DNA of 64,000 nt from Armatimonas rosea (GCF_014202505.1 NZ_JACHGW010000002.1:620001-684000); one strand, 5' to 3'; shown: positions 31,123-57,363, counted from the first letter of the stretch. The notes: generated by a model from the sequence alone, not told the origin. Translations and numbers: made by a program.

Positions 31123-31195
31123 GGCCCGTTGGTCTAGCGGTTAGGACGCCTCCCTTTCACGGAGGAGACCAGGGGTTCGATCCCCCTACGGGCTA
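31123..31195 (+). tRNA. tRNA-Glu (UUC)
   Basis: 73 bases. Acceptor GGCCCGT pairs with ACGGGCT (first pair G-U), discriminator A. The anticodon stem CCTCC/GGAGG encloses the loop CTTTCAC, giving anticodon TTC. The T-arm carries GGTTCGATCC. CCA is not encoded. MnmA (231-1331) acts on this tRNA. A tyrosine recombinase begins 110 bases downstream, so the 3' end of this gene is the likely island attachment site. Confidence 0.95.
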
Positions 31196-31305
31196 TAAAA
31201 ACCTGATAGACTAAAAAAACTGATCCCTGCTTGTGGTGAGTAGTATCAGTAACTCTCAACAATAAAGTGTGTTTTGTCTCCTCAGTCTTGGACTGAAGAA
31301 ACAAA

Positions 31306-38834: not shown

Positions 38835-39482
38835 ATGGAGTTCGTTGTGAACCAAAGGTACCAAGAGTTATGGGAGGAGCTGCGGGGAGGGCATCCGACA
38901 GCTCCTGATCGGTTCTATGTCGCAGTGGCTCCTGTCCTCGTAACTCGGCTTATCCGGTGGGGCAAACTTCAGTTTCCCCGCGAGATCATTGAGGATGCGG
39001 TCACAGATGTCCTTCTTGGGTTAATTCAAGCACCAGAGCGTTTTGACCCGAGTAAGAGTAGCATACTTGGCTATCTTCAGATGATTGTTACGCGGCGTCT
39101 GATAGATCGCCTTAGGCGGCAAGAGAGAAGGCAAACAGAGAAAATAATTTTTCTGGAAGATGTCGCACTTGCCGAGCCTATAGCGAATAGCCTTACAGAA
39201 GATCCGGAACGCGTTGCTCTGCATTCCGGACGTGATCCTGCTTTGGAGTACTCCCCAGAGCTTGAGAATTTGATGGAAGAGCTGCTGCCTGATATACGAG
39301 ATCGGCTTCTTGCGACAGAGTTCTTAGCAGGAAGGCTCTCGGTAGAGATATTTGTCCAAGTCTATGCTTTAGAGAGTCTACCCTTGGCAGAACAGCAACG
39401 TGAGATGAAACGGAACCGTGATCGTGTGATGCTGCGACTCAAGCGCAATCGAGAAAAACTCTGGGAGGCCATCCATGGCTGA
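38835..39482 (+). CDS. ECF-like sigma-70 family factor
   Basis: 215 residues. Region 2 is clear: IIEDAVTDVLLGLIQAPERFDPSKSSILGYLQMIVTRRLIDRLRRQERR (about residues 50-100), with the 'FDPxxSxxxGYL' core that binds the -10 element and core polymerase. Region 4 is less typical, but LPLAEQQREMKRNRDRVMLRLKRNREKL at the end can serve as its recognition helix. The stop overlaps the next gene by 8 bases (ATGGCTGA). First gene of the run to the end-processing cluster, so it probably transcribes that cluster. Confidence 0.75.
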   Translation: MEFVVNQRYQELWEELRGGHPTAPDRFYVAVAPVLVTRLIRWGKLQFPREIIEDAVTDVLLGLIQAPERFDPSKSSILGYLQMIVTRRLIDRLRRQERRQTEKIIFLEDVALAEPIANSLTEDPERVALHSGRDPALEYSPELENLMEELLPDIRDRLLATEFLAGRLSVEIFVQVYALESLPLAEQQREMKRNRDRVMLRLKRNREKLWEAIHG

Positions 39483-39876
39483 GGAATCCACTGTACTGCG
39501 ACGGCTCCGTGATCGAGCGGTTGCTTACGCACAAGAAGATCAACGCACGGATCTTCTCATTTCCTCACTGTCTCTCTGGATGGAGAGTGAGAGTCAAACA
39601 CCAGAGGCACTGGCGCAGTTCCTCGGCACGGATGCAACAGGACTTAGCCGCCTTGCTCTCTGCCGACCTCCTCGCCAAAGTGCGTACATAGAAGATATTG
39701 AGGTGATCGCAGGGTACTCCGGATGCCGTATTGAGCCACTACGACATCTTCTACGACGCCTGGAGGTGTTAACGACTCTGGCGGGGTCTGCACCGACTAC
39801 TGGGCAATTGCCGAACTCGGTCACTCAAGCGATCTTATTAGCAGCACGTGATCGGGAGCTCGGCCCCGATGCCTGA
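39475..39876 (+). CDS. small HTH-like partner of the sigma factor
   Basis: 133 residues. The centre (TPEALAQFLGTDATGLSRLALCRPPR) reads like a helix-turn-helix, followed by YIEDIEVIAGYSGCRIEPLRHLLRRLEVL. No membrane segment and no zinc motif, so not a classical anti-sigma factor. It overlaps the sigma gene upstream and the metallopeptidase gene downstream by 8 bases each. By position it may be the inhibitor of the sigma factor and the substrate of the protease; this is inference only. Confidence 0.6.
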   Translation: MAEESTVLRRLRDRAVAYAQEDQRTDLLISSLSLWMESESQTPEALAQFLGTDATGLSRLALCRPPRQSAYIEDIEVIAGYSGCRIEPLRHLLRRLEVLTTLAGSAPTTGQLPNSVTQAILLAARDRELGPDA

Positions 39877-40603
39877 CGCCTTTTCACAGACACTTGTCCT
39901 GGCGACTCGCTTACGCGAAGAACTGGGGATGGTCCCAACAGAGGTCTTTGATCCTATTGCGGTGTTGGAGTCAGCCTATCCCGTGGCGTGTGTTGCCATA
40001 CCCAGCCTATGTGTGGGGGCTATCCGACAGTGGCTGGAGCAGCGTGTAGAGTCGTTTCCTGCTCAGCTTTTACTCGCAGAACAGGAAGATCGTCCGCTAC
40101 ATGGTGCCGTCCTCGCGTGGCGTGGCGTAGGGCTCTTGCTTGCGGACGAACACGACCCCTGGATCGAGCAGCGCTACACCTATGCGCATGAAGGTGCGCA
40201 TTTCCTTCTTGAGCATTACTTTCCACGCCAAGAAGCCTTGCGCTGCTTGGGAGAGCGAATCCGTCCTGTCTTGAATGGGGAACGCCCCCCGACTCTTGAG
40301 GAGCGCTCCGACGCACTGCTGAGAAACACTGCTCTGGCATGGCATGCACACCTGTTTCCAAAAGACGCCCAGGGTCGCCAGTTTGCCGAAGAGCGAGCCG
40401 ACTGGCTGGCTTGTGGCCTACTGGTGCCTCCAGAAGTGATTCTACAAGGTGAGCAAAAGCAGGTCAGTGCTGATGAGGTCGCGGATACCTACCAGATTCC
40501 TCTCGCGATTGCCAAGGAGTATGTTCTACGCCTATCCTATGAACAAAGACCCAAGAACAATTGTGTGCTCCTAGAGCGCCTCGCATCATACAACCATATA
40601 TAA
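39869..40603 (+). CDS. ImmA/IrrE-family metallopeptidase
   Basis: 244 residues from the ATG at 39869 (overlap ATGCCTGA with the gene before; a GTG at 39848 is in frame but less likely). Zinc-protease motif HEGAHFLLEHYF (HExxH, about residue 105), followed by a later Glu in GRQFAEERADWLACGLLVPPEV, the third ligand region typical of ImmA/IrrE. Family members cleave a specific repressor after DNA damage (IrrE on DdrO in Deinococcus; ImmA on ImmR in ICEBs1). Its position before the repair-type genes fits such a switch. Confidence 0.85.
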   Translation: MPDAFSQTLVLATRLREELGMVPTEVFDPIAVLESAYPVACVAIPSLCVGAIRQWLEQRVESFPAQLLLAEQEDRPLHGAVLAWRGVGLLLADEHDPWIEQRYTYAHEGAHFLLEHYFPRQEALRCLGERIRPVLNGERPPTLEERSDALLRNTALAWHAHLFPKDAQGRQFAEERADWLACGLLVPPEVILQGEQKQVSADEVADTYQIPLAIAKEYVLRLSYEQRPKNNCVLLERLASYNHI

Positions 40604-40655
40604 TGTTTTATTAAATTGTCGCACTGTGTCTGAAGAGAACGAAGCAATACTGTAG

Positions 40656-41834
40656 ATGGAAGAAGAAAGCCTGACGGCAACATTGGGAGAGCCACTTGAC
40701 AGTGTGTTGGACCTTACCTCCTGGAGAGACGGAAGAGATCAAAGTGTACTTTATGAGCAATTAAGGACAGTCGTTGCGGAGAGTGTCGCCCAGAGCGAGC
40801 GGACTCGTCAACCAATTCGCGATATCGTCGTCAAGCGATTACGGGCAAGTGCGGGTACAGGTACCTCACCCAAGGAAGCGGGGCTGTACTCCCTTAATCC
40901 GGGGGATATCGCGGAGGTTCATCGCCAGCTACTTTTTAACGGAGCGGCAGAAGCCTGTGATGGCACGGTCATCGCACATGACTCCCTCTTGCTAACCGTG
41001 GCACAGATCGGCGTCGCTCTCGTTGCCTACCAAGGAGGCACTGGCTCCTGGGTTCAGCGGCTCTACCGACGGGACCTACGGGAGACCTACGAAGACCCTG
41101 TTGAGGAAGCCATAGCTTTACTGGAGCGCCGGAGCCGAAGTGATAGTGCCGATGCGGATGACACGCGTGATCCGGTCAGCCGTCTGCTACGTCGTGGGTT
41201 GATGGAGTACGCTGAGCGTGCCATCTTACTACATCGCTCCACTGCCCCTTGGCGCATTGGTCATGGTCACCCAGTGACAACGACAATTCTGCTGCCGACA
41301 ACTCGCTCGCTTTTCCTGGCATCTCTAGACGTACTCCGTGGACTTTTGCTAGATCATAAGAAGTTTCTCTATGTGGCAAGTAGCCCAGCAGATCGTTTGG
41401 CTCGCACAATCGGAGACTCGCTCTATCCTCTCGAATATGCTGTGATCGGAAGTTTGGCTGATTCATTTAACGATCATCACATTGATAGCCTGACGAGTAA
41501 GTCAACGGGCCACCCTCAAGAGCGAATAGCACTACGGCAGTTTCTTGTTGATGTTCGGACAGAGATTGTCTATGGAGTCTACCGAGTTACCGACTACTCA
41601 CCCGCGCAGGTTTTCTACGCCCATAAAGATCACGTTCACACCGCGGCGTCACTGGCAATGGCAGATAGCGTCTTACAGCCCCACCGGGGCTTTCCGATGT
41701 TGATTGACCTAGCCGATCTAGTCTGCCGAACGACGTTTGATGGGGGAAGCTTCGCAGGTTTGGTGCACTCTGCTTACGCTGCGGCTGGGGCACCCGTTCG
41801 TTATTTAGGAGAGCGCGAGACACGCTCGCGCTAG
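40656..41834 (+). CDS. nurA: NurA-like nuclease
   Basis: 392 residues. NurA is a 5'-3' nuclease that works with HerA. Here the gene lies 20 bases before HerA. The first acidic motif of the fold is recognisable (ACDGTVIAHDSLLLTVAQIGVALV, Asp about residue 101). A late Asp/His-bearing region is found around LIDLADLV and GLVHSAYAAAGAPVRY. Central segments LPTTRSLFLASLDVLRGLLLDHKKFLYVASSPADR resemble the NurA core. Sequence identity to known NurA looks low, so the call leans on context. The N-terminal 90 residues are helical and unassigned. Confidence 0.65.
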   Translation: MEEESLTATLGEPLDSVLDLTSWRDGRDQSVLYEQLRTVVAESVAQSERTRQPIRDIVVKRLRASAGTGTSPKEAGLYSLNPGDIAEVHRQLLFNGAAEACDGTVIAHDSLLLTVAQIGVALVAYQGGTGSWVQRLYRRDLRETYEDPVEEAIALLERRSRSDSADADDTRDPVSRLLRRGLMEYAERAILLHRSTAPWRIGHGHPVTTTILLPTTRSLFLASLDVLRGLLLDHKKFLYVASSPADRLARTIGDSLYPLEYAVIGSLADSFNDHHIDSLTSKSTGHPQERIALRQFLVDVRTEIVYGVYRVTDYSPAQVFYAHKDHVHTAASLAMADSVLQPHRGFPMLIDLADLVCRTTFDGGSFAGLVHSAYAAAGAPVRYLGERETRSR

Positions 41835-41854
41835 GGTTAGGAGAGATAAAGGAA

Positions 41855-43687
41855 ATGACTATGGAGCAAGAAGAGAGCAGAGGCGCACTGCGCGTTTTTG
41901 ATCAGGTTCAGGAGGAGATGCGGGAGGATGCTGCCCTCCGAGGGGGAGCCTACACCGTTCCTGTAGATCGTGCCAACGCAGCTGGGTTCACCATGTTCGA
42001 TACGCCCAATAGCGACGACAATTTGATCGAGGTACTGGTACCCAAAGATCGGATCGAGCGTCTGCCTTCTCAAGCGAGTGTGCGTATCCGGAGTCGGGAT
42101 GGGCGGGTTTATCTGGGAACGGTGGTTCGTGGCCCCTATGCCCTCCCCGATGGGCTTCGGGCGGATGCCCCGCCGGTTGTGGCGACGGCGCTACATGGCT
42201 CTGTTTTCTTACCGGAATACCATGGCCTAGTGTCTGTCGAGCTGGCAGGAGAAGAGCGAGATGGTGCACTGATGCCTCATCGGTTCCGCCCTCTGCCAAA
42301 TAGCCCGGTGGAGGCACTGGAAGACGCGGAGATCGAAGCCTTCTGGAAGACCGGGGGAAATGTGCGTCTTGGAGCTGCGTTTGGCCACGAAGATCTAGCT
42401 GTCTCGTTCGATCTGATGCGCAAAGAGGTGCTCCCACGTCACACGGCGATCCTTGGAACCACGGGTGGAGGTAAGTCCACAACCGTTGCAGGCATGGTTC
42501 ATAAGCTCCAGAACGCAGGCGCGGCGGTGATTCTCTTGGATACGGAGGGTGAGTATACAGAGATGAACCTCCCAACAGAAGACCCACGCATGGAGGCGGC
42601 TCTAGAGCGACTGGGCCGTAAGCCCGAGGGTGTCGCCGATACCCATGTTCTGTATCTGGTAGGGCGCGACGCTGCCAACCCTCTTCATCCCGATTGCCGT
42701 CCCTTCTCCCCATCATTTTCGCGGATCTCGCCCCATGCAGCGATGGAGATTTTCGATCTCAATGAAGCCCAGGAAGAGCGCTTTCAGAAAGCCGTCACCA
42801 CAACCGCGCGACTGCTCGATGAGCTTGATCTTTGGACTGAGGAAAACCGGCAGTACGCAAAAGAGGCGATGGACGAGTTCGATGAAGGTTGGCCCAAGAT
42901 GCGCCTCTCGCAAGTCTATGATGTCGCCCGCTGTATCGCGGATGTGCTGCAGAATGGCTCCGTTCAAGAAACAGCTTTGCGGTCGCCAGATTTTCATAAC
43001 CAGCGCGCCAAATTTGTGGGAATTATTCAAGAGGCCGCTAAGGACGAAACAAAACATTGGCAAAGCTGGCGCAAGGTGCAGGGACGGATTGGACGGATCG
43101 AGCGGCTTGGGCTTTTTGATAACCCGAGAGCCACTTCACTGGATGCTAGGCAGATGCTTCAGCCTGGGCGGGTGACTATCATTGACCTCTCAGATTCTGA
43201 ATCTACTGTGGTGAACAACCTCGTGATCAGTGAGCTTCTCCGCGAAGTACAGCGCCAGCAGGAAGAAGCCTACCAAGAGGCCGAGGATATGGGACGGGAG
43301 CCTACGCCTGTTGTCGTCATGATTGAAGAGGCACACGAGTTTCTCTCTAGCGCCCGAATCGCACGCATGCCGATTCTGCATCAGCAGGTAGCCCGCATCG
43401 CGAAACGAGGCCGTAAGCGCTGGCTGGGACTGGTGTTTATCACACAGCTGCCCCAGCACTTACCTGATGAGATGCTTGGGTTGGTCAATAACTACATCCT
43501 TCATAAGATCGGCGACACCGGCGTCGTGAGCCGTTTAAAGCGCACGATTGGCGGGATGGATGACTCGCTCTGGGGACGCGTTTCTCGCCTTGCACCAGGG
43601 CAGGCCATTGTGTCCCTCTCTAGCCTGACCCGCCCCCTTCTGACCGCGATAGATCCGGCTTCCTGCCGGTTGAGGATGATCCGTTGA
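41855..43687 (+). CDS. herA: HerA-type DNA translocase/helicase
   Basis: 610 residues. The N-terminal beta-barrel region (HAS-barrel-like, residues about 40-160) is followed by a FtsK/HerA ATPase core: Walker A LGTTGGGKSTT (about residue 201), VILLDTEGEYTEM, Walker B VVVMIEEAHEFLS (about 488), then ARIAKRGRKRWLGLVFITQLPQHLP with the sensor and arginine-finger region. HerA hexamers pump DNA into NurA and cooperate with Mre11-Rad50 in end resection in archaea. The TGA stop is inside TTGATAA, overlapping the TTG start of the next gene. Excellent family match. Confidence 0.92.
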   Translation: MTMEQEESRGALRVFDQVQEEMREDAALRGGAYTVPVDRANAAGFTMFDTPNSDDNLIEVLVPKDRIERLPSQASVRIRSRDGRVYLGTVVRGPYALPDGLRADAPPVVATALHGSVFLPEYHGLVSVELAGEERDGALMPHRFRPLPNSPVEALEDAEIEAFWKTGGNVRLGAAFGHEDLAVSFDLMRKEVLPRHTAILGTTGGGKSTTVAGMVHKLQNAGAAVILLDTEGEYTEMNLPTEDPRMEAALERLGRKPEGVADTHVLYLVGRDAANPLHPDCRPFSPSFSRISPHAAMEIFDLNEAQEERFQKAVTTTARLLDELDLWTEENRQYAKEAMDEFDEGWPKMRLSQVYDVARCIADVLQNGSVQETALRSPDFHNQRAKFVGIIQEAAKDETKHWQSWRKVQGRIGRIERLGLFDNPRATSLDARQMLQPGRVTIIDLSDSESTVVNNLVISELLREVQRQQEEAYQEAEDMGREPTPVVVMIEEAHEFLSSARIARMPILHQQVARIAKRGRKRWLGLVFITQLPQHLPDEMLGLVNNYILHKIGDTGVVSRLKRTIGGMDDSLWGRVSRLAPGQAIVSLSSLTRPLLTAIDPASCRLRMIR

Positions 43688-44883
43688 TAAAAGCAATTGT
43701 TGTATCTGACTGCCACCTGGGAACCTACTACGCCCGGTTTCGCCCTGAGCGCTTGGAGCAGCGACGACGCCAGCTCCAGCAGGGATTTGCTAAGACGGTT
43801 CAAGCAGCACTGGACCATGACGTAGAGCTCTTCCTCATCGCGGGAGACCTTTTTGATCGTCCCGATCCGCGCAATGCAGACCGGCACTTTGTTGCACTGC
43901 AACTTGGTCGACTAGCAGCGGCGAAGATCCCCGCAGTGGCAATTGCAGGTAACCATGACAGCCCTCGCTCCTACGGCTATGACGGCGGTATTGTTCCCTT
44001 GCAGGAGATGCACGCGCTGGGCGGTGTCCAGCTCCTCCGACAGGACGATGTTATGCAGGGCGTCCAGATAACGGTGCGAAGCGGAGCCACTGTATCGGTT
44101 CGGGGGATGAGTGCCTCGTTCCAGCACGACGATGGTAGCTGCCCACTTAGTACCCTCGCCGCTGACAAGCGAGGCGGTGCACTGGATATTGTCCTGCTCC
44201 ACTATGGTGTCGAAGGCTGGTCTGGTGAGAACTTCCAGGAACCACGTCTAGCCCTAGAAAATCTAGAGAAGCTTGATACGGATGTTATTTGTGTGGGGCA
44301 CCTCCACCGACGCAACGAGCGCCGACTCCAGAGTGGTGCACTTCTGCTGAACCCAGGCTCGACAGAGCACATTCACTTTGGTGAGGAAAAGCTTGACTGT
44401 GGCTGCTATCTTCTGACGCTCGCCACTGGGCAACCGGCGAAGGCAGAGTACCTGCGCCATACCGTTCAGCCGATGCGCACCCTAGAAGTTTCAGGCGAAA
44501 CGTTGGACGAAACCGATCCCCAGGCGGATCTGGAGAGACGAATCGCCGAGGCCACGAGCCCAGAGACTCTCTTCCGGCTGACCTTGACGGGGGAACTTCG
44601 TCAGGAGGTCTATGAGCTGGTGGATCTCAACCGTTTGCAGACGTTTGCGAGTGAGCGGTCCTTTCACTCACAGATACAAACGGATGATCTTGCGATCCGC
44701 TATCCCTTTGGGGAACTTGTTTTCTCCTCGGGGGGCTTTGAGCTTAATGAGGTACTCAGCGAGGTAGCACAGGCTATGGAACTATCCGCAACGGATGAAG
44801 AGCAGCGTGCACTCTGCCGCGAGGCGCGGGAGGCGATCCTGGCCTCGTATCAGCGACTGCGTGGAACGGGGGTGGCAGCATGA
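43684..44883 (+). CDS. Mre11/SbcD-like exonuclease subunit
   Basis: 399 residues, starting with TTG at 43684 (overlaps the HerA stop). Calcineurin-like phosphoesterase motifs in order: SDCHLG (DxH), IAGDLFDRPD (GDxxD), IAGNHDSPR (GNHD), LLHYGVEG (His) and CVGHLHRRN (GHxH). These ligate two metal ions for the DNA nuclease. A capping domain of about 150 residues follows (LTGELRQEVYELVDL). The stop overlaps the Rad50-like ATG (ATGA). Closest in layout to SbcD, Mre11 and YhaO. Confidence 0.92.
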   Translation: MIKAIVVSDCHLGTYYARFRPERLEQRRRQLQQGFAKTVQAALDHDVELFLIAGDLFDRPDPRNADRHFVALQLGRLAAAKIPAVAIAGNHDSPRSYGYDGGIVPLQEMHALGGVQLLRQDDVMQGVQITVRSGATVSVRGMSASFQHDDGSCPLSTLAADKRGGALDIVLLHYGVEGWSGENFQEPRLALENLEKLDTDVICVGHLHRRNERRLQSGALLLNPGSTEHIHFGEEKLDCGCYLLTLATGQPAKAEYLRHTVQPMRTLEVSGETLDETDPQADLERRIAEATSPETLFRLTLTGELRQEVYELVDLNRLQTFASERSFHSQIQTDDLAIRYPFGELVFSSGGFELNEVLSEVAQAMELSATDEEQRALCREAREAILASYQRLRGTGVAA

Positions 44884-47800
44884 TTCTTCTACACCGGCTA
44901 GAGGCCGAAAACTTCAAGCAGTTCGAGAAGATCGAGCTGGATTTCCCCGAGCGTGGTGCTGTGCTCATCGAGGGGCACAACGAGGCAGGTAAGTCCTCGC
45001 TCTTTGAAGCCGTTTACTTTGCACTCTACGGTAAGGGGCTGGGTGGATTAGATGTGGGAGACCTCAAGCGCTACCACGCAGATCAGATGAAGGTCACCCT
45101 CAGATTCTCTGTGGAAGGACGTCAATTCACCGTGGAGCGTCGCCTTGCATCCAGCCAAAAAGTGACTCTCACGTGCCCTGTGGGTTTAGATGGTCAGGTA
45201 GAGGTTATCAAGACATTGACTCCTGCCAATAAGCGCATCATTGATGAACTGGGTATGAGTGACGCGTCGCTTCTCAATACCTGCTTCGTCGAGCAGAAAC
45301 GCCTAGAGCGGATTGAGTCTGCAAAGCCCGAAGAGCGTAAGCAAACCATCAATGAGCTCCTAAACTTGAAGTCACTCTCGATGCTGGAGTCGGAGTTCAA
45401 GGTAGTACGGGCAGATAAAGACGCTGTTCTAAGGGCTAAGGAGCGGGTTGATATCGCGAATTTGGATGGGCTACTTTCCGCACTTCAGGAAAAAGAGCAG
45501 CGGATGAAGACTTGCTGCCAGCTTTCTCGTTGGCAAGAAGCGGATCGTGAACACTCCCGGATACAACTGCGCCAAGGAGAAATTGCGACGGAGCAAGACA
45601 AGATAAAAACGCGCCTCAGAGAAATCAAAGCAAAATTCGATACTATCAATCGGCTTGAGGCGAGAGCCCAGGCTATTGCGAGACAACTGGCACCTCTGGC
45701 ACGCGCTTGGCAGGATGGTGAGCATCGAATTGCTGAGGCCGAGGCCGCCGTTACTGCCGCGAAGAACGCCGCGCTACAAGCCACGGAGCTTAAGGAAAAC
45801 CTGAAGCAGGCAGAAATGCATCACAAACAGCTTGTCGAGGCGCTGGAGTTTGCAAAAGCCCATCGCGCTTGGGAGGACTATCACCAAGCGCAGAACCAGC
45901 AACAGGAAGCGCTGACCAAGATTGAGTCCCTGAAGCAAAAGGTTGAAGAGGCTGAGCGGGCGGAGGGGCTCGCACAGGTAGCACTGGCAGGAGCGGAGCA
46001 GAAACTGACTCTGCGAACAGCTCTCCAAGATTGGGCTAATGCCTCTGAAAACCTCACGAAGCTCCAGAGTATCGAGATGGATCGTGCCCGCTTCGTTCAG
46101 GAACAAGAAGCCACACGAACCCAGCGTATGCAGGAACTGGAAGCGAATCATACTCAGCTCACTCAGCAGCTAGAGACTGTGCGTACTAAAAATATTCAGG
46201 AGCTTCGCGAGTTGGAGGCGGCTCACGTCACGGCAATTCGGGAGTGGGAAGCGACGGTAGCTAAAACAGGTCAAGAGCTACTTGCTGCACAAGAGCGCAT
46301 GAAGAAGGGGCAGACTTCTCTACCCATAATGTCACTGGTTGGGGTACCGAGCTGGAGTGTTATGGGGCTCGGACTAGCACTCACGCTTGGTGGTTTGAAA
46401 GTAGTCCCACTTCTCTTGATTGGTCTAGTTCTTCTTCTTGTCGGAGTGGGCTTGGCCTTTCAGAAGATCAGTACAGCCCGGAAAGCCTCCGAGGGACAAG
46501 CGATACAGCTATCGCAAGAAGTGGGGCGGCTTGAGCAAGTACAGAAAGCCGCAAAAGACCAGCGAACCGCCCTTGAGCAACAGCAAGCCCAGCACCTCAA
46601 GATGGCGCGGGAACAACACCGTATATTGGAGCAAGGGCTTCTTCAGCAGCAAGCGCAAGTGCTCGAGCAGAAGCGCCAGGCGGAACAGAAAGCGGCGGGC
46701 CATCATGGCAGTGGCCAGGTCACGGCGCTTCCGGAGGCACAGAAGCAAGAAAAGGAATGCAGAACCACACTAGAACACCTGATTGGGGATGCCCCTTTCC
46801 CCACGGATACTGATGCAGCGCGTACCAGTGCTGAGGCTATTACCCATGCGCTTGAGCCCATTCGTACTAGGGCACGGGAAGCCCAAGAAGAGAGTAAGCG
46901 CCTGAATCACAGCTTGATTGCCACACAGTCTGGAGTCAAGCAAGCTCCTATACCAACTGTGCCACAACCAACGGATACAGAGCGCCAGCTCTTGGCTCAG
47001 GTACAAGCGGGGCTTTCACAAGCTAAATTGCCCTCGGAGCCAAGTTCTCTTGCCAGTGTGATTGGCCAGCTCAAACAGAAAATGCAAGGGCAAGAGGAGC
47101 TTGCTGCGACACTTCCCACTTGCGAACAAGCTCACCAAGCAGCAGTGCTGGCGCGGGATCAGCGGCGGGATGCTTTTCATGAGGCTTGCCAGAATCTACT
47201 GACGGAAAATGTCGTGATTCCCAGCGAGGTGGTTCAGGTACTGGAGGTTTTCTTGCCTGAACAAGAACAAGCAGTTCGCATGGCACTTCAGGTATTCGAT
47301 CCCTCCGCGCTTCGGATTGAGCAAGACCAGCATAGGGAGGCGGAGGCGAGTCTACAACAGGAGCAGGGGCGACTTCGGCAACAGGAGAGTGATGTGACGA
47401 AGCAACGCGAGGCGGCGCAGGAGGCGCTTGCGACTGATTCAGCTGGAGTGACAGCGCTTCTCCAGAGTCACCCTGAGGTTACCTCTCGTACCAGCGATTT
47501 CTGGCAAGCGGAGGCTCTTGGCGCAGGTGAGAATGTACTGGAGAACCGGAGTCGTCGAAAGGCACTAGCGGATCGTCTCGGACTGACAGATGAGCTCTTG
47601 GAGAGTACGGTAGAGTCACTGGCGCTGCAAACCGCCCAGCGAGCTTTGCGACGTAAAGAGCTCGCTAGTAAGATCGTTGAGGAGTCCCGCAAGCAGATAC
47701 TAGACCGCGTGATGCCCTCGACTGAGATCTGGGTGAAGAAATTACTGCCTCTCTTGACAAACCACCGCTACCGGGACATTAAGTGGAATTCCGAGGAAAA

Positions 47801-48137
47801 CAAAGTCTCTGTACTAGATTCCCGTAAGGGAGAATACGTCGAGAAGAGAGTTTTTTCTGGAGGTGCACGTGACCAGATATCATTGGCATTGAGACTTGCA
47901 TTTGCTCTTGCTACTCTGCCAGGAGAAAGCGCCACCCGTCCTGGCTGGTTATTCCTAGATGAGCCACTTTCCTCATTCGACGAAGCGCGTACACTATCAT
48001 TGATCGACTTGTTAACGAAAGGCTTGATACATAAACAGTTCCAACAGATCTTTCTAGTTTCTCATAGTAAGTCCTTTGATCCGGACAAGTTCCCCCATCG
48101 TATCACGATGGAAGCGGGACGGATTGTATCGAGTTAA
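44880..48137 (+). CDS. Rad50/SbcC-like SMC ATPase with hydrophobic hairpin at the coiled-coil apex
   Basis: 1085 residues. Walker A EGHNEAGKSSLFEAVYF (about residue 35), Q-loop region CFVEQKRLERIES, long coiled coils (180-480 and 535-960), signature FSGGARDQISLALRLAFAL (about 990) and Walker B GWLFLDEPLSSFDEART. The usual CxxC zinc hook is absent. In its place residues about 480-530 form two hydrophobic stretches (MSLVGVPSWSVMGLGLALTL and VVPLLLIGLVLLLVGVGLAF) separated by a short turn, enough to cross a membrane twice. YhaN-type proteins are known to have such apex segments. The gene overlaps the Mre11 stop. ATPase and motifs strongly supported. Confidence 0.9.
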   Translation: MILLHRLEAENFKQFEKIELDFPERGAVLIEGHNEAGKSSLFEAVYFALYGKGLGGLDVGDLKRYHADQMKVTLRFSVEGRQFTVERRLASSQKVTLTCPVGLDGQVEVIKTLTPANKRIIDELGMSDASLLNTCFVEQKRLERIESAKPEERKQTINELLNLKSLSMLESEFKVVRADKDAVLRAKERVDIANLDGLLSALQEKEQRMKTCCQLSRWQEADREHSRIQLRQGEIATEQDKIKTRLREIKAKFDTINRLEARAQAIARQLAPLARAWQDGEHRIAEAEAAVTAAKNAALQATELKENLKQAEMHHKQLVEALEFAKAHRAWEDYHQAQNQQQEALTKIESLKQKVEEAERAEGLAQVALAGAEQKLTLRTALQDWANASENLTKLQSIEMDRARFVQEQEATRTQRMQELEANHTQLTQQLETVRTKNIQELRELEAAHVTAIREWEATVAKTGQELLAAQERMKKGQTSLPIMSLVGVPSWSVMGLGLALTLGGLKVVPLLLIGLVLLLVGVGLAFQKISTARKASEGQAIQLSQEVGRLEQVQKAAKDQRTALEQQQAQHLKMAREQHRILEQGLLQQQAQVLEQKRQAEQKAAGHHGSGQVTALPEAQKQEKECRTTLEHLIGDAPFPTDTDAARTSAEAITHALEPIRTRAREAQEESKRLNHSLIATQSGVKQAPIPTVPQPTDTERQLLAQVQAGLSQAKLPSEPSSLASVIGQLKQKMQGQEELAATLPTCEQAHQAAVLARDQRRDAFHEACQNLLTENVVIPSEVVQVLEVFLPEQEQAVRMALQVFDPSALRIEQDQHREAEASLQQEQGRLRQQESDVTKQREAAQEALATDSAGVTALLQSHPEVTSRTSDFWQAEALGAGENVLENRSRRKALADRLGLTDELLESTVESLALQTAQRALRRKELASKIVEESRKQILDRVMPSTEIWVKKLLPLLTNHRYRDIKWNSEENKVSVLDSRKGEYVEKRVFSGGARDQISLALRLAFALATLPGESATRPGWLFLDEPLSSFDEARTLSLIDLLTKGLIHKQFQQIFLVSHSKSFDPDKFPHRITMEAGRIVSS

Positions 48138-48161
48138 GTGTATAGGAATAGGGTGTTAAAA

Positions 48162-48803
48162 TTGAAAAACAAAGAAATGCTTCTCCTGAGTTTTCTTATG
48201 CTTAGTGGGTGTAATCAGTCGCGCCCTCTACCAACTGTACAGAAGCCAGAAGACCCTGTCTTGAATGTGGTTGCGATAGACCGCAGTGGTAGCACAGCGA
48301 ACATGCGTGAGACTCAGCTGCTGGCGTTAAAATCTGCTTTCGCCAGAGCTGCCGATTGGGGTGAAGAAGTTGCTATCTACATGGTTGACAGAGAGATTAC
48401 CTGCTTACTTCCAGCCGAAAAGATCAATGACGACTCTCGAATCAAAAAACGCGTTTTTGATCAGTTGAAGGAATTAGATGCTTTACGTTCTCAAGGTACA
48501 CGTCCTTATAACTTATGGAAAGAAATGGAGAAGCTATATGCAGGTAAACAAAAGAGTGTTCGTATTCTTTATCTGACGGATGGAGATAACGATTGGAAAG
48601 ATGATGAAAGGCTAATAAGTAGAGCTTTGCTAAGTATTTCTAAGAATTCAAAAATAACAATTGCAATACTTGGATTGAATAAGGATACAGAAGAGGGACT
48701 TAAATCCCAGTTTTCCTGTTTTGGAGGTCGAGTGACATTATCAGTAGGTAAAGAAAAATCTACCATTGCTGCCGGGATCACTAAGTGGAGAGAGAAAAAA
48801 TAA
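48162..48803 (+). CDS. VWA-domain lipoprotein
   Basis: 213 residues from a TTG at 48162 (ATAGGG 9 bases upstream; an in-frame GTG at 48138 adds 8 basic residues). Lipobox FLMLSGC, so membrane-anchored on the outer face of the cytoplasmic membrane. The VWA metal site is visible as AIDRSGST (DxSxS), with the Thr/Asp pair in YLTDGDNDW. Typical VWA strands are NVVAIDRS and ILYLTDG. VWA proteins bind partners through a metal. The stop overlaps the start of the next gene (TAATG). AT-rich relative to the rad50 gene. Confidence 0.75.
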   Translation: MKNKEMLLLSFLMLSGCNQSRPLPTVQKPEDPVLNVVAIDRSGSTANMRETQLLALKSAFARAADWGEEVAIYMVDREITCLLPAEKINDDSRIKKRVFDQLKELDALRSQGTRPYNLWKEMEKLYAGKQKSVRILYLTDGDNDWKDDERLISRALLSISKNSKITIAILGLNKDTEEGLKSQFSCFGGRVTLSVGKEKSTIAAGITKWREKK

Positions 48804-51751
48804 TGGTAAATGTTGCAACAGTACCTCTCACGGAGGCAGAGTCTCCCGTTATTGAGACCGAAGCGATTGAAGGAGAGTTGATTGATGCTAGTGGTGAGGT
48901 TCCCATCCCTGATGACCTTCTTAGTGATGAGGAAGGGAGCCCCCGGTATTCACTACCAAATGAGCTAGTCAAGGTGCAGTATGACATGGTGCCGGTGGCC
49001 ACGGTACCACAAACGGTTGGGCTGAGCGAGCGGATTGTCATTTCTGCTCCCTCGTCCCGGCAGTCGAATCCCTACGACCTCGGTGCCTATGAAGAAGCGG
49101 TTCAGGATCTGAATACGCGGTTTGCGTTGCGTGTTGCCCACGTCCGTGAGGCACGTTTCCGGCTCGTAGCAGCGGGAGAGCGCCATCAGCGGCTATTTGC
49201 CCTTAAGGAGCTCGAACGTCAGAACTTGAACTGGCGTAACCAGGTCAATAATACTCGTCTGGATGAAGAGCTCGCAAGTTTGCGTAAATGGTGGGAAGAA
49301 ACACGTAAGAGCTATAATGATGAAATTAAGCGCATCGAGGAAGACCGCATTACATACCGCATGGAGCGGCACTCTGAGATCGAGGCGGCCCGTAGTGTTT
49401 ACTGGGAGGTGCAAGAGCGGTGTGCCAAAGAGCGTGATATTCGGGACCAAGAACGCCGTCAGTTTGAGAAAGGGCAAGAACGGGACTACCAAAAACATGT
49501 TGATGAGCTCACAAAGCAACGTGATAAACAGCTCTTTGAGGAGCAGCAGGAGGCACGTGAGCGTGAGAAGGCCCTTCAAGAAGAGGTCTTAAAAACACGT
49601 GAAGCGCGGCGTGTGGCTGCACTGCAAGCTGCCGAGGAAGCAGAAGCCAGTGCCGAAGCTGCCGAGCTAGCGAAACAACAAGTTGAGGCTGAGGTTATTG
49701 CTCGGTTCCAGGAACAGCTAACTGCGGCGTCCGAAAAGTACCAGAAAATCTTTGAGGAAGCGGTCACGCGGGTCGAGATGATGGAAGCAGAGCTCCGCGA
49801 GGCTGCCGATAAGATCGAGGCCGAGCTACTTTCTGAGCGAAGTCAGCGCGAAGACTGGTTGCACTCCATAGCGAAAGAGACCGCTGAAGAAGCGGCTCGA
49901 CAAAATGACACAGTTCATGCTGCGCGTCGGACTTTCAATACCACTGTCAGCTCGCAGGCAAAGTTGCCTGGCTTGTCTTCACTGAACAAAGAAGGTGCTG
50001 GTGATATCGTTACCGCACAGACGAACACTGCACATCTTTCTTTTTCAAATCGTCACCATGGATTTAAAAAATATCTTCATAATGTCGGGGATTTTGTTGC
50101 ACATATTGCTCTTGGTAGTATTTTTGGACTAAGCTTGGGACTGCTGACAAAATTTGCTAGGTTGGATGCAGAAAGTATACAGAAATTTGGATATAATTCG
50201 GTCTATGTTTCTTGTGTATTTGGAATATTTATCTTCTTTTTGATTGGTCGTCTTGCATTGAAAGCGAGTACATTTGCCACTGAAGAGATGGATGCATCCA
50301 GAAAATCCGACGAAAAAAATCGAGGTGTGATTGCAGTTGTCTTAGCTTATCTGGTTCTAGTTGGCGTTGTTATCCTAGAAGCTAGTGTCGAGCGCTTTGG
50401 TTTAGGTGAGATCATCCGCAAACAGATGGAATTGAATATGGAATCCGGAGTTCCTAATAAGTATCAGGAGTTCTCTCTCTGGGTCATAGCCTTTATTGTC
50501 TCTGCTCCATTTATGATCTACCATGCCTATGAAGGGGCGATGGAGACGCGCTACCGACTGGGAGAAAAGCAGCATCAGAGCTTACTCGCTGTGCAGCGTT
50601 ATGAGCTGGAAAAAGAAGAGGAGCGACTCAATGAAGAGCGACTCCTAAAGGCTCAGGTTGCCAAGGGTACGCTTGATGCAGAGGAGGCACAGTTGCGGCT
50701 GCTTGGGGAAGGACTTCACCATCCACGACGTGAAGCAGAGCGGCGCATTGAGGAAATCAATGCACTACTGACGACACATCCCGATATTGTCCGGTGGCAG
50801 GAATTTGTTGCGAGACGTGATGCACATTTGTCAACCGATCCACTTCTGATGGAAGCAAAGGCTCAGTGGGATCGTGTAAAGCAAAGCCTCGACTCTGATC
50901 CACGTCTCAAGAGTGCGCGGCTTCTTGCGGAAGAAGCGCGGTTTGCGGCAAATGATGCCCATCGCAAAGCAGAGAGCGCCGAATCAGAGCTGGCCTTTGC
51001 ACTGGAAGACGCGGCTCGACAGCTCATCACTAGGACAGGTTCCAGTGTTGCGGAAGCACTCGGTCAAAAATCGGGCGAGCTTGTCTCAGGAGCGCTGAAC
51101 CTGGCATCGCAGGCGGCCCGTGGTGGTTTGGGCGGGGCTACCTCACCATTTGGTATCGCAGCAACTATAGCCGAGAAAGCTCTTATTCCATCCAATACGG
51201 CGGGTACAGAAGTTGAAACCTGGGAAGAGACGATGGCACGCGAACGGTGGAATAGTTTACGTGGGGCCATTGCAAACGACCCTAAGATCCGTTTCTATGC
51301 AGCACGTGTCTCCTCGCTCCAGAGCATGATCCGAAGTCTGGATACCCAGTATGGTAAGCGGAGAAAGCAACTCATGGATCAGAAGCGCGCGATTGAAGTT
51401 CGCTTGCTTGAAGATGAACATTCCAACCGAATGAGTGAGGCGATGCGCTCGGCCCTCCACGAGGCAGAGCTTGATGTGCAGTCAGCACAATTGAATTTTA
51501 ATGAAGAGATTGATCGGTTGATGAAGCTTCATGCCACACCGTCGTTTCTCCGCTGGATCACCGCCTATTTACAGAATAGGGACAGCCAGTCAAAGAGGCA
51601 GATGGAAGCATCTAGTAGAGCCAAGCCTTTATTGCCAAGTTCTTATCGGACGAGTGAGAATAATGCTAGGGAGATTCCTCCCAAAGGGGGTTCCACAGAT
51701 GTATCTGTACAGGATCGCCCAAACGAAGCCACCATGGTAGGGAGCCGATGA
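48803..51751 (+). CDS. 982-residue membrane coiled-coil protein
   Basis: From the ATG at 48803 (GGAGAGA upstream). Acidic N-terminus, a long coiled coil (about residues 90-385, charged heptads such as EEDRITYRMERHSEIEAAR), then four membrane helices at about 432-585 (FVAHIALGSIFGLSLGLL, VYVSCVFGIFIFFLIG, GVIAVVLAYLVLVGVVIL, FSLWVIAFIVSAPFMIY), then a second coiled coil of about 350 residues with a Pro/Ser tail. Not recognised. By position and shape it may hold the Rad50-like complex at the membrane or sense envelope change. Last gene of the operon. Confidence 0.7.
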   Translation: MVNVATVPLTEAESPVIETEAIEGELIDASGEVPIPDDLLSDEEGSPRYSLPNELVKVQYDMVPVATVPQTVGLSERIVISAPSSRQSNPYDLGAYEEAVQDLNTRFALRVAHVREARFRLVAAGERHQRLFALKELERQNLNWRNQVNNTRLDEELASLRKWWEETRKSYNDEIKRIEEDRITYRMERHSEIEAARSVYWEVQERCAKERDIRDQERRQFEKGQERDYQKHVDELTKQRDKQLFEEQQEAREREKALQEEVLKTREARRVAALQAAEEAEASAEAAELAKQQVEAEVIARFQEQLTAASEKYQKIFEEAVTRVEMMEAELREAADKIEAELLSERSQREDWLHSIAKETAEEAARQNDTVHAARRTFNTTVSSQAKLPGLSSLNKEGAGDIVTAQTNTAHLSFSNRHHGFKKYLHNVGDFVAHIALGSIFGLSLGLLTKFARLDAESIQKFGYNSVYVSCVFGIFIFFLIGRLALKASTFATEEMDASRKSDEKNRGVIAVVLAYLVLVGVVILEASVERFGLGEIIRKQMELNMESGVPNKYQEFSLWVIAFIVSAPFMIYHAYEGAMETRYRLGEKQHQSLLAVQRYELEKEEERLNEERLLKAQVAKGTLDAEEAQLRLLGEGLHHPRREAERRIEEINALLTTHPDIVRWQEFVARRDAHLSTDPLLMEAKAQWDRVKQSLDSDPRLKSARLLAEEARFAANDAHRKAESAESELAFALEDAARQLITRTGSSVAEALGQKSGELVSGALNLASQAARGGLGGATSPFGIAATIAEKALIPSNTAGTEVETWEETMARERWNSLRGAIANDPKIRFYAARVSSLQSMIRSLDTQYGKRRKQLMDQKRAIEVRLLEDEHSNRMSEAMRSALHEAELDVQSAQLNFNEEIDRLMKLHATPSFLRWITAYLQNRDSQSKRQMEASSRAKPLLPSSYRTSENNAREIPPKGGSTDVSVQDRPNEATMVGSR

Positions 51752-51809: not shown

Positions 51810-52553
51810 TTAGTGTAGGCGTAGGATTGGCTCGACAGAATCGTAGCCCTCATGCTCTACCTGTGCTTCCAAGCGCTCTACCTCGGCTTGGAGCACTGTC
51901 GTATCTTCTCCATTGGAGCGGGCTGCGTGGAGCTTGAGCTTTGTGAGCGAAAGACACGGCAGCGGGATAAAGCCTTGATGCGTGTGCCAGGCCACACTGG
52001 GCTCGTTGGCGGGATGGTAGGTGGTGAGAAGCTCTGTGGCCCCTTCGGCGAGGAGCTGAGGAATCACGTAGCGCAGAAGATAGGTCGCCACGCCCTGGTG
52101 CTGATAGCGTGGGCGCACGGCGAGGGTATCGAGAAGGAAACCACTGGCGGTTTTCTTGACCAGTAGCAGAGCCGCTACAGAGCGCGGATGCCGCTTGGGG
52201 CGCAGGATTCGTGAAGTGGGATGGGCACGGGCGATATCTTGGGTGAGCCAGCGCCGGATCTCACGCTCCAGAATCTCTCCGACATAATCACAGAGGTCAG
52301 GCGTATCACGAAATGCCGCGCGGTAGAGCTGGGCCAGTGCCTCTGGTGTGGCATTGGCGAGGGGGGCAAGCACCAGCCCGGCGGGGGGCGTGCTACTTGG
52401 CTCGGGAATGTTGTGGAGTGGTAAGGCACCAACTACTGCTAGCTCACGGGGGCGGATGTGCACGGTGCCATCCCAGTACTCGTACTTCCAGGCGTAGTGA
52501 CGGTGTAGAGCATGAAACTCGTCGATGGGCATCGGAATGTGCTGGGTTCTCAT
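51810..52553 (-). CDS. GNAT-family N-acetyltransferase
   Basis: 247 residues. The acetyl-CoA site is visible in LDTLAVRPRYQHQGVATYLLRYVIP (RxxGxA-like, QHQGVA). Early part FHALHRHYAWKYEYWDGTVHIRP is unassigned. The last part is charged. It overlaps the start region of the PD-(D/E)XK gene by 4 bases and ends the minus-strand defence run. Function unclear: it may act as a tRNA- or protein-acetylating toxin, but no antitoxin is visible. Confidence 0.8.
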   Translation of the reverse strand: MRTQHIPMPIDEFHALHRHYAWKYEYWDGTVHIRPRELAVVGALPLHNIPEPSSTPPAGLVLAPLANATPEALAQLYRAAFRDTPDLCDYVGEILEREIRRWLTQDIARAHPTSRILRPKRHPRSVAALLLVKKTASGFLLDTLAVRPRYQHQGVATYLLRYVIPQLLAEGATELLTTYHPANEPSVAWHTHQGFIPLPCLSLTKLKLHAARSNGEDTTVLQAEVERLEAQVEHEGYDSVEPILRLH

Positions 52554-53680
52554 CGTATGCTTTGAATGGCTTGGTTCAAAAGAGGCAAATCTCCCGTGAG
52601 GAAGGACTCCCAGCTGGCGTGGAGCTCGTCGAGGATCTGCTCTAGTGTCTTCTTGGTATAGGAGCGCGGCGCGATAAGCTCGCGTGAGTAGAGGATAGTC
52701 CAGGCAGCATTGCGTGCGTTTGGTTTAACGGTGAAGGGAGCTCCTTGTGCCTCGGCGAGCGCGATGAGCCGCGCACGATCTGCGGGATCGGTCCCGGCAC
52801 TGATCTGAAGACTAAGACGCAACGACTGAGGCTGGTTGGAGAACCAGAACAGCAGAACACGCCCCTCCGCAGACCACTTACAGGGCCGCCTGCGAGGCAG
52901 AAAGTCATCCCACACAACAGGAACAAAACTCACTTGTGACCGGGCGGCGGGCTTTGCATAGTCGAGAACAAAGATAGAGTTCGCCTTCACAAGCGATTCC
53001 AGCTCTTCACGAATTCGAGTCTGGGGGTCAGCGCGGCGGGCGTAGAGATAGTCGAGGGCGCGGTGGTGGCGCTGGTAGAGCTGGATGCAGAGCGCATCGA
53101 GCTCGTTCTCGTGGAGTACCTGCCGTCGGAGAGTGGCGGTGTAGTGAGTCAGGAGAGTCAATACTTCAGGCTGAAGACTAGGGAGATTCGTTGCCCCCTC
53201 AAGTAGTGTGATGATAGTACTGTACTCGGCGAGCAGGTAGTCAGGGTCTGAGGCGGGTGCTCCTAGTGGTGAGAGGAAGACAAAGACCACCTTCCAGCCC
53301 GCGAAGTGGCGTGCGGCCAGCTCCTTGTAGCGCTTGAGCTGATCGCCGTGCTCTCCTGCCCCGATCTTGTTCTCGATGACCACTGCTAGCCGGGCACGAG
53401 GACAACGGATGAGGATATCTATCCGCTCCCATTCGGTGCGCACTTCTGTATCGGAGAGGTCGGCTGGTTCAGTGAGGCCAAGGTGATGGAGGAAGCCGCG
53501 TAGGAAATGCTCGCCCAGTCCATGTGTCTGGTGCGGGTCCAGCAGGAAGGCGAGGGCTTTGGAGTGGATAACCTCCTGCCGAGCTATCCCCATGGCCTCG
53601 AAGAGATTGAATTGCTGGAGTGCCTGCTCTAGTGCAGCAAGATCAGGGTCGTAGTTTAGGGCTTCTAGCTCAGAGATCAT
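52550..53680 (-). CDS. PD-(D/E)XK nuclease superfamily protein
   Basis: 376 residues. The catalytic core is clear: WERIDILIRCPRARLAVVIENKIGAGEHGDQLKRY (Asp in IDI, then E-N-K, with Gln-Leu-x-x-Tyr after) near residues 88-120, as in the PD-(D/E)XK nuclease family found in defence islands. Early part FNLFEAMGIARQEVIHSKALAFLLDPHQTHG is family-typical. The remainder is helical. Likely acts on invading DNA alone or as a domain of a complex with its neighbours. It ends in the GNAT start (overlap). Confidence 0.85.
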   Translation of the reverse strand: MISELEALNYDPDLAALEQALQQFNLFEAMGIARQEVIHSKALAFLLDPHQTHGLGEHFLRGFLHHLGLTEPADLSDTEVRTEWERIDILIRCPRARLAVVIENKIGAGEHGDQLKRYKELAARHFAGWKVVFVFLSPLGAPASDPDYLLAEYSTIITLLEGATNLPSLQPEVLTLLTHYTATLRRQVLHENELDALCIQLYQRHHRALDYLYARRADPQTRIREELESLVKANSIFVLDYAKPAARSQVSFVPVVWDDFLPRRRPCKWSAEGRVLLFWFSNQPQSLRLSLQISAGTDPADRARLIALAEAQGAPFTVKPNARNAAWTILYSRELIAPRSYTKKTLEQILDELHASWESFLTGDLPLLNQAIQSIR

Positions 53681-53691
53681 GGTGTGAGTTC

Positions 53692-55497
53692 TTAGTATTT
53701 CGTCGTAGCGACCAGAGACATCGTGGCGGTTACGATCTGATCTGGCATCGTTGTATCCTCATGCCCATCTGTCGGGCGGGGCCGCAGTGCGACGTTCCAG
53801 AGGGATGGGGCTAATCCACATTCCTCAAGGACACTCTGTACTGTCGAGCCGTCTTTGATGAGTAGGTTGAAGATTTCCACGTATCCATCGGAGCGGTGCA
53901 TCTCAACGGTGAAGGGGAAGAACTCTGCTGAGAGCATTTCTTGGATGGGGAGTTTATCGGAGGTGATCATCTCCAATATCTGGGGATCGATGATACAAAG
54001 CTCGATTTCTTCTAGTGCTCCCCCGGGGCTGGTTCGTTCAAACTGGCGAATGCCCCGCAAAGTCTGCGCGAAGGGGTGGATGGGATGCCAGAGATTCCTC
54101 GCGGAGAACCCGGAAGCGATGGAGCCAAGAAAGACCCGTGAAAATCCCTGCTGGGCAATCACAGCAAGTCCAGCCGCCACCGCCTCGGGCACCACGGCTA
54201 AGTCACGATAATCACTGTCCCCTTTAGGGCGGCGCGCTGCGATGGCAAAGAGTGGCTCGTTATTGTACTGAAATATATTGGCATTGGTTGTGGAGTCGAG
54301 TGGTTTCCAGAGACTGGACTTGTTTACTCGCCCCGTTGCGGCAAGGTACCCGGTTCCAAAGTTCCCTAGAACCGGTCGGTTATTGCGACGCCCAGCACTG
54401 ACGACAACCGCCGCTCCCTCAGGAATACTAACAGGTGTCGTTCGATGGGAGAGCAAGACTCTTAAGTTGTGCGGGGAAAGAGTGTAGGTTCGAGAGGTGA
54501 GCGCCGTTCTGCCTTGGGGCAACCCTGATACTGGGGAATAGGAGACTTTCAACTCAGCTCGGAGCTGGCTTAAAAAATCGGGAATGTCATCGTGGCTCGT
54601 GGTGAAGAGTGGCGTGATTCCAAGGCGTGTCTGTAAGAACCGCACATCGAAGCGCCCACTGTCGCGCTCAGACGCAGGCAGGAGTGCAAAGTGTGGAAAA
54701 GCACTCGGGCCATGGTTGTAGATGATCTCGCTAAACAGGTTCAGCAAGTAGTCTTCGAGAATCCCTGAGCCAACAAAGAAGAAGGAGCGGCGGCGATAGA
54801 CTTCCGCGAAGGCTCGGCGAAAGTGTGTGTCTCCGTTAATTGCTTGCTGGTACTGCTGGTGCCCAACGACCACCTGGCTTTCCAACTGCAACCGCCGATC
54901 TGGGTCAGGAATGATCTCTTCTGGCGGATTGTGCTGCCCTCCCAGGAACCCCTGAAGTGCCCAGTAAAGAGGCGGTGCGATTCGGTCCAGGGAGCGTAGA
55001 ACCCTGTGACAGTCCTCTAGGCCACGGCCCACGATCTCGGGCATCTGGCGCTCATGCGAGCGGACAATATCGGATGCTACCTGTGAGCGCTCCTTGCAGG
55101 CTGCCCAGTAGAGGTCATCGTAGTTGGTGGTGAGCACCAGCGGCCAGTATAGACCGTTTGTGAGTGCCTTCATCTGTGCGGGAATCGCTTGGCTCCCGAC
55201 AGGGTGATTGTGTATCCCCTCCCGATAGCGCCGCGCTTTTTCCTCGGGTGGTAGAGCGTGCATCTTGTGGACAACGGTGTCGGCGATTCGGTAGAGGGCG
55301 GCGCTCTCCAGAGTTACTGTCGCGTCCGTAAGCTTTCTGGCATCATCGTCCATCCCAGCCTGGTATGCAAGTGTAGCTAGGAACTCGTTCCAGCTCGTGC
55401 ATGTGGTGCGGCTCATGCCGGAGCCGATGAACGGAACCAGGAGGCCACGCTGGTAGAGCGTGACGAGGTTAGGAATCAGGCTATTATCGAGGGGCAT
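53692..55497 (-). CDS. SIR2-domain protein with extra C-terminal modules
   Basis: 601 residues. SIR2-like NAD-binding opening LLVPFIGSGMSRTTC (about residue 20), LVLTTNYDDLYW (about 118) and FFFVGSGILEDYLLNLFSEII (about 245). From residue about 340 a second module contains VVVSAGRRNNRPVLGNFGTGYLAA and VAAGLAVIAQQGFSRVFLGSIASGFSARNLWHPI, which I would compare with macro-type ADP-ribose binders. The last 80 residues (EIFNLLIKDGSTVQSVLEECG) look like a ubiquitin-like beta-grasp. SIR2 defence proteins deplete NAD after infection. The two C-terminal assignments are inference. Confidence 0.8.
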   Translation of the reverse strand: MPLDNSLIPNLVTLYQRGLLVPFIGSGMSRTTCTSWNEFLATLAYQAGMDDDARKLTDATVTLESAALYRIADTVVHKMHALPPEEKARRYREGIHNHPVGSQAIPAQMKALTNGLYWPLVLTTNYDDLYWAACKERSQVASDIVRSHERQMPEIVGRGLEDCHRVLRSLDRIAPPLYWALQGFLGGQHNPPEEIIPDPDRRLQLESQVVVGHQQYQQAINGDTHFRRAFAEVYRRRSFFFVGSGILEDYLLNLFSEIIYNHGPSAFPHFALLPASERDSGRFDVRFLQTRLGITPLFTTSHDDIPDFLSQLRAELKVSYSPVSGLPQGRTALTSRTYTLSPHNLRVLLSHRTTPVSIPEGAAVVVSAGRRNNRPVLGNFGTGYLAATGRVNKSSLWKPLDSTTNANIFQYNNEPLFAIAARRPKGDSDYRDLAVVPEAVAAGLAVIAQQGFSRVFLGSIASGFSARNLWHPIHPFAQTLRGIRQFERTSPGGALEEIELCIIDPQILEMITSDKLPIQEMLSAEFFPFTVEMHRSDGYVEIFNLLIKDGSTVQSVLEECGLAPSLWNVALRPRPTDGHEDTTMPDQIVTATMSLVATTKY

Positions 55498-55521
55498 TGG
55501 GAGGGGTACTACCTTTCAGCT

Positions 55522-56223: not shown

Positions 56224-56245
56224 AATATATCTAAATACTCCAAAT

Positions 56246-57349: not shown

Positions 57350-57363
57350 CTGTGGGGATCCTT

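Follow-up and report, generated by a model that had tools for sequence, protein, structure and literature searches.

A conserved five-gene cassette linking a sigma factor, a small regulator and a CapP/IrrE-like protease to NurA and HerA on an integrative island of Armatimonas rosea: a candidate inducible anti-invader module

The genes studied here lie in a 64,000-nucleotide stretch of the 6.3-Mb genome of Armatimonas rosea (GCF_014202505.1, NZ_JACHGW010000002.1:620001-684000; G000:C2:620001-684000 in our own labels), referred to below as the window; positions are counted from its first letter unless the contig is named. Between 38,835 and 51,751, nine open reading frames follow one another on the + strand, and the best reading of the locus is that the first five constitute the functional unit: a cassette of an extracytoplasmic function (ECF)-type sigma factor, a small regulator, a CapP/IrrE-like protease (together called the trio), NurA and HerA. 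The genes and the features behind their assignment are as follows (HTH, helix-turn-helix; TM, transmembrane; HMM, hidden Markov model):

38835-39482, +, ECF-type sigma factor, cassette gene 1 (Sigma70_r2 8e-12; profile matches to RpoE 2q1z, 9e-4, and to CnrH)
39475-39876, +, small HTH-like regulator, cassette gene 2 (family alignment; conserved C-terminal LxAARD tail)
39848-40603, +, ImmA/IrrE/CapP-like metalloprotease, cassette gene 3 (HEGAH, of the HEXXH form, and EXXAD)
40656-41834, +, divergent NurA-fold nuclease by predicted structure, cassette gene 4 (invariant Asp102)
41855-43687, +, HerA translocase, cassette gene 5 (DUF87 2.9e-22; Walker A GTTGGGKS)
43684-44883, +, Mre11-like nuclease, optional add-on (Metallophos 2e-14; phosphoesterase motifs intact)
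44880-48137, +, Rad50-like ATPase, optional add-on (SMC_N/AAA_27; predicted TM hairpin, no CXXC)
48138-48803, +, VWA-like lipoprotein, gene 1 of an independent neighbouring pair (lipobox, DxSxS; weak HMM match)
48785-51751, +, coiled-coil protein, gene 2 of the independent neighbouring pair (four predicted TM segments)

The preliminary description of this locus had listed nine genes, eight of them on one strand with overlaps or short gaps, and all nine were found on the one strand. The sigma and regulator genes overlap by 8 bp and the regulator and protease genes by 29 bp, gaps of 52 and 20 bp separate, respectively, the protease from NurA and NurA from HerA, the HerA/Mre11 and Mre11/Rad50 overlaps are of 4 bp each, and the Rad50 gene abuts the VWA gene, which overlaps the coiled-coil gene by 19 bp. 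The HMM check of each family revealed that sigma region 2, HerA, the Mre11-like phosphoesterase and the Rad50-like ATPase are backed by Pfam. The proposed ImmA/IrrE protease remained below the Pfam cut-off but held in profile comparison, its closest solved relatives being CapP (7t5t, 4.5e-5) and then IrrE (3dte), and the proposed NurA-like nuclease, which had no Pfam match, was supported by comparison of its predicted structure. The claim of a VWA lipoprotein was borne out in part, by a lipobox and a DxSxS motif, while its HMM support was weak (E 0.07).

Locus neighbourhoods were searched with iterated profiles of each operon protein. These analyses revealed that 18 of 20 loci (3 Armatimonadota, 15 Chloroflexota) have the complete order sigma, regulator, protease, NurA and HerA, with identities of about 25-60% across these loci and the two phyla. 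Synteny from sigma to HerA at that divergence far exceeds chance, and the tie between a sigma/protease switch and NurA-HerA, suggested at the outset, is a real conserved unit. The exceptions were L088, which is cut by its contig, and L010, a NurA-HerA pair without an adjacent trio, the trio of the same genome sitting at the end of another contig. The companion claim of one nine-gene module was not supported: homologous loci separate three blocks, and each of the other 17 complete cassettes lacks the pair of VWA and coiled-coil genes. For these last two genes this is the outcome that the preliminary description had itself named as refuting its module.

The NurA-like protein was present in 3 of the 301 genomes around the window, the window's own genome counted, and in two further Chloroflexota records (genome contigs). 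A sample of 350 Chloroflexota genomes gave matches in 19, of which 18 were strong and one (G312) was a distant canonical-like pair. When the small-regulator family was searched against 301 Chloroflexota genomes, 19 strong loci (E < 1e-20) were returned; all sampled genomes of this phylum with a strong NurA match also carry the regulator (18/18), and at the one extra regulator locus (G327) the contig ends just after the protease. The regulator of L100 has diverged, yet it was recognised in this search. In Chloroflexota every strong regulator match thus lay either in a cassette or where a contig breaks off, and since regulator and NurA coincide, the trio does not serve as a general switch for other effectors in this sample. 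No relatives were found in viral contigs or plasmids (one viral scan and a plasmid collection; phage records were not searched). A distant NurA-HerA pair without the trio was observed in a Chloroflexota genome (L101, 8211-10879), its NurA lying just under the Pfam cut-off.

Searches of Pfam (PF09376), NCBIfam, PHROGs and PDB sequences with the gene-4 protein returned no NurA match; PF09376 likewise misses the L086 and L087 proteins and scores the canonical L053 NurA at 1e-20, and profile-profile comparison with canonical Armatimonadota NurA gave no support for a relationship. An AlphaFold model was built from 18 sequences (an earlier five-sequence model was poor) and had a mean predicted local distance difference test (pLDDT) value of 72.7. 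Foldseek ranked NurA 2ygk first (E 2e-3), and VIA-align gave a Z of 14.5 over 258 residues against the same structure, the top six rows all being NurA. Three NurA structures reached Z 14.5, 14.3 and 14.3, the TdpAB nuclease 12.7 and Deinococcus NurA 10.5, with endonuclease V and Argonaute rows next at Z ~10. The root-mean-square deviation to the NurA structures was ~5-6 Å (5.7 Å for the alignment over 258 residues) and the relationship is therefore a distant one; because Pfam gives no NurA match, the protein is filed as a NurA-fold nuclease only. The structure prediction, which the preliminary description had proposed, thus supports a NurA fold, and the model supports the assignment of a divergent NurA-fold nuclease. 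Asp102 is invariant in the 18 sequences and closes an early strand of the model; it is a candidate counterpart of the catalytic Asp of Thermococcus kodakarensis NurA (D49). HerA contains the motifs GTTGGGKS and VVVMIEE, and its profile matches (9x1l, 2.7e-35; 4d2i, 1e-33) comprise archaeal HerA and solved HerA proteins of other complexes.

The sigma gene is conserved across the 18 cassette loci. Its C-terminus is conserved and region-4-like, with profile matches that reach the C-terminus of 4cxf and 3mzy and no Pfam region 4 match. The small regulator has no usable Pfam match, and its best plausible match is a weak one to XRE (2ef8, E 0.04); the family alignment revealed the C-terminal LxAARD tail as its best conserved part, a candidate cleavage or sigma-binding site. 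The HEXXH motif and the downstream Glu of the protease are invariant in 16 sequences, and its Pfam ImmA/IrrE score is 19 bits against a cut-off of 22.

Mre11 and Rad50 adjoin the cassette in only 2 of the 18 loci, the window and L006. Mre11-Rad50 of the same kind occurs alone in G022, and G057, G031 and G044 carry a different operon of four genes, NurA-HerA-Mre11-Rad50, whose NurA is recognised by Pfam and which lacks the trio, so that Mre11-Rad50 is not the fixed part of the module that had been assumed. The four-gene operons L053, L054 and L055 come from three genomes of one Armatimonadota genus, and the coiled coil of their Rad50 contains a hydrophobic segment. The phosphoesterase motifs of Mre11 and the ABC head motifs of Rad50 (Walker, signature) are intact. 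No zinc-hook CXXC is found in the Rad50 of the window, and the SbcC of G146 keeps CPVC. Hydropathy analysis revealed a hydrophobic hairpin at about residues 483-526 of the Rad50-like protein and a similar one in L006; five related Rad50 proteins (L053 to L057) show one strong hydrophobic segment, and that of G022 none above threshold. The Rad50-like protein is predicted from its sequence to carry a TM hairpin in place of the zinc hook. YhaN/YhaO were considered as relatives of this hairpin Rad50, and a literature search gave no support for the idea. The membrane tethering first proposed for the locus therefore loses the VWA/coiled-coil pair, which is not part of the unit, and keeps the predicted hairpin of the Rad50-like protein itself.

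The VWA and coiled-coil genes adjoin the cassette in the window only, and in G158 a coiled-coil homologue of full length is paired with a VWA gene, with no HerA nearby. Judged from these gene neighbourhoods, the pair is a separate neighbour, unrelated to the cassette. More pairs of VWA lipoprotein and coiled-coil protein were seen in other Armatimonadota (L025, L029, L030, L031), which makes it a conserved pair. Because the blocks occur apart in other genomes, the island operon seems to have been put together from the five-gene cassette, the Mre11-Rad50 add-on and the unrelated pair.

Genomic context analyses revealed a DNA methylase next to the sigma gene in 11 of the 13 Chloroflexota loci with enough upstream sequence (N6_N4_Mtase in L009, L089, L090, L092, L093, L094, L096, L097 and L098; diverged in L091 and L100). 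In addition, cas genes of types I-D, I-G-like and III-B lie within ~13 kb in seven loci (L009, L086, L087, L090, L091, L092 and L099). Cas1 occurs within 13 kb in 6 of 15 genomes, compared to 0.15 expected under random placement (P ~3e-9; ~3e-8 after collapsing close relatives). A simple finder located no clustered regularly interspaced short palindromic repeats (CRISPR) arrays inside the fetched stretches, and the CRISPR link thus rests on the cas genes. Neither methylase nor Cas1 is required, since the Armatimonadota cassettes have no methylase neighbour and G000 has no Cas1, and the proximity of cas genes may be a general property of defence islands instead of the sign of a CRISPR function.

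The operon rides on an integrative island of 36.8 kb bounded by 48-bp tRNA-Glu repeats, which extends from 31150 to ~4 kb past the end of the window:

31150..31197, strand not assigned, left of two identical 48-bp direct repeats, tRNA-Glu 3' end, probable att site
G000:C2:687928-687975, right copy of the 48-bp repeat, ~4 kb past the window's end
31306..32319, +, tyrosine recombinase of the island (Phage_integrase 2e-35)
52550..63826, -, further defence-type genes on the island: PD-(D/E)XK nuclease (PDC-S26), SIR2_2, NucS-like nuclease, PtuB/PtuA, and HsdS and HsdM of type I restriction-modification

The island also holds a primase/helicase-like gene. The Septu-like PtuB/PtuA pair (56246-59253, -) adjoins HsdS/HsdM, and a large restriction-type gene lies just past the window (G000:C2:683838-686570). 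The SIR2_2 protein (53692-55497, -; 601 residues) has a long C-terminal part without assignment and only a weak LmuA match, and a 191-residue protein encoded just upstream of the operon (37828-38403, +) has paired cysteines, zinc-ribbon-like, and no family match.

On this analysis, there is about an even chance (probability roughly 0.5) that the cassette is a single-stranded DNA (ssDNA)- or damage-triggered, sigma-amplified, inducible module that degrades invader DNA; the wider proposal of the preliminary description, an invader- or damage-triggered DNA-end-processing module, is probable on the synteny of sigma/protease with NurA-HerA. In the resting state the small regulator would silence the operon, either repressing it or keeping the sigma factor bound, until the protease is activated by ssDNA or damaged DNA that arises when a phage attacks, a plasmid enters or DNA is repaired. 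The protease would then cut the regulator, perhaps near the LxAARD tail, by analogy with PprI-DdrO and CapP-CapH; ssDNA activates the cleavage of their cognate repressors by PprI and CapP (PMC10904395). The freed or derepressed sigma factor would drive its own operon. HerA, clear as to family and presumably a hexameric pump, would feed duplex DNA to NurA, which would destroy the threaded DNA from its ends, as the studied HerA-NurA systems suggest (PMC12977600, PMC9960219); HerA-NurA of T. kodakarensis cuts both strands and has been proposed to be antiviral (PMC12977600). The adjoining DNA methylase of Chloroflexota may mark self DNA, and on the island the added Mre11 and hairpin Rad50 probably open blocked ends or hold the reaction at the membrane of DNA entry.

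Several points weigh against a defence module: the confidence of the NurA model is only medium (mean pLDDT 72.7), the HTH assignment of the small regulator is weak, no methylase lies next to any of the three Armatimonadota cassettes, no Cas1 match was found in G000, no sigma-70-type promoter stands out over shuffles in the operon region, and a damage-controlled DNA-repair role would look much alike. Such an inducible repair cassette, in which a PprI-DdrO-like damage response has NurA-HerA, joined by Mre11-Rad50 if the locus encodes it, resect ends for homologous recombination, is possible and is the more doubtful of these two explanations. Repair genes of Deinococcus are controlled by PprI-DdrO (PMC10904395), NurA-HerA takes part in resection in Deinococcus and in Sulfolobus (PMC9960219, PMC4351679), and the Pfam-recognisable NurA-HerA-Mre11-Rad50 operon of G057, G031 and G044 also suits repair; however, the patchy distribution (3 of 301 around the window, 18 strong in 350 Chloroflexota), the tRNA island among defence genes and the frequent methylase/cas neighbours better fit mobile defence. 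Defence is preferred over repair because of this distribution and these neighbours.

The seven loci close to cas genes could also point to a CRISPR-auxiliary machine whose task would be to supply DNA fragments, or to clear targets, for the uptake of spacers, a part that RecBCD/AddAB play elsewhere, and both the Pyrobaculum nurA-csm6-herA locus near CRISPR, proposed for adaptation (PMC3396285), and the listing of NurA/HerA among putative CRISPR auxiliary genes (PMC10910872) agree with it. This role is nevertheless unlikely, considering that G000 is without Cas1, that most cassettes are away from cas genes and that the neighbouring CRISPR types differ, as expected of general defence islands. Least probable is a nine-gene membrane-tethered machine: the tight spacing of all nine genes on one strand speaks for it, but it is contradicted by synteny, the blocks separating cleanly in other genomes, and it was rejected on that ground. 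Beyond the anti-invader module itself, Chloroflexota and Armatimonadota might have in this cassette a new class of inducible immunity: in response to invader ssDNA a CapP-like protease would free a dedicated sigma factor, and a burst of NurA-HerA would then destroy unmethylated DNA and pass fragments to neighbouring CRISPR adaptation, the island version having a membrane-anchored Mre11-Rad50; we regard this full scheme as speculative and improbable.

The operon of the window shares its four protein kinds with the archaeal NurA-HerA-Mre11-Rad50 set, HerA and the Rad50 heads being clearly homologous, whereas its NurA is beyond Pfam, its Rad50 is hookless with a predicted TM hairpin, Mre11-Rad50 is optional and the trio is added. 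CapH-CapP of the cyclic-oligonucleotide-based anti-phage signalling system (CBASS) and DdrO-PprI/IrrE of Deinococcus similarly have the gene of a HEXXH protease next to that of a small putative regulator and upstream of effector genes; here, in contrast, an ECF-type sigma factor is within the unit, the regulator family is not recognisably the same and the effector is NurA-HerA, and the PADLOC matches in the operon include no CBASS effector or cyclase. SIR2-HerA, DUF4297-HerA and TdpAB also combine a HerA-type pump with a nuclease, that of TdpAB matching the NurA model (Z 12.7), but the nuclease of the first two differs and the cassette has its dedicated control trio. Tdp uses phosphorothioation, whereas a base methylase lies beside many copies of the cassette. 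Papers on phosphorothioate and bacteriophage exclusion (BREX)-related HerA capture systems leave NurA and the trio unmentioned. The Pyrobaculum locus resembles the cassette in its NurA-HerA pair near CRISPR arrays, but it is archaeal, has csm6 and has no reported sigma factor or protease (PMC3396285). HerA-nuclease defence (PMC11291478), protease-controlled defence operons (PMC10904395) and NurA-HerA near CRISPR (PMC3396285, PMC10910872) are already known; for the unit of sigma, regulator, protease, NurA and HerA, no paper or family model was found among open-access papers and a few libraries.

If the anti-invader reading is true, the cassette would join protease-triggered control of defence to HerA-nuclease destruction of DNA via a dedicated sigma factor, in phyla that are little studied for defence. 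It would offer a testable case that bacterial NurA-HerA can serve immunity instead of repair, and the Rad50, hookless and with a predicted membrane hairpin, would make the membrane anchoring of DNA-end processing directly testable.

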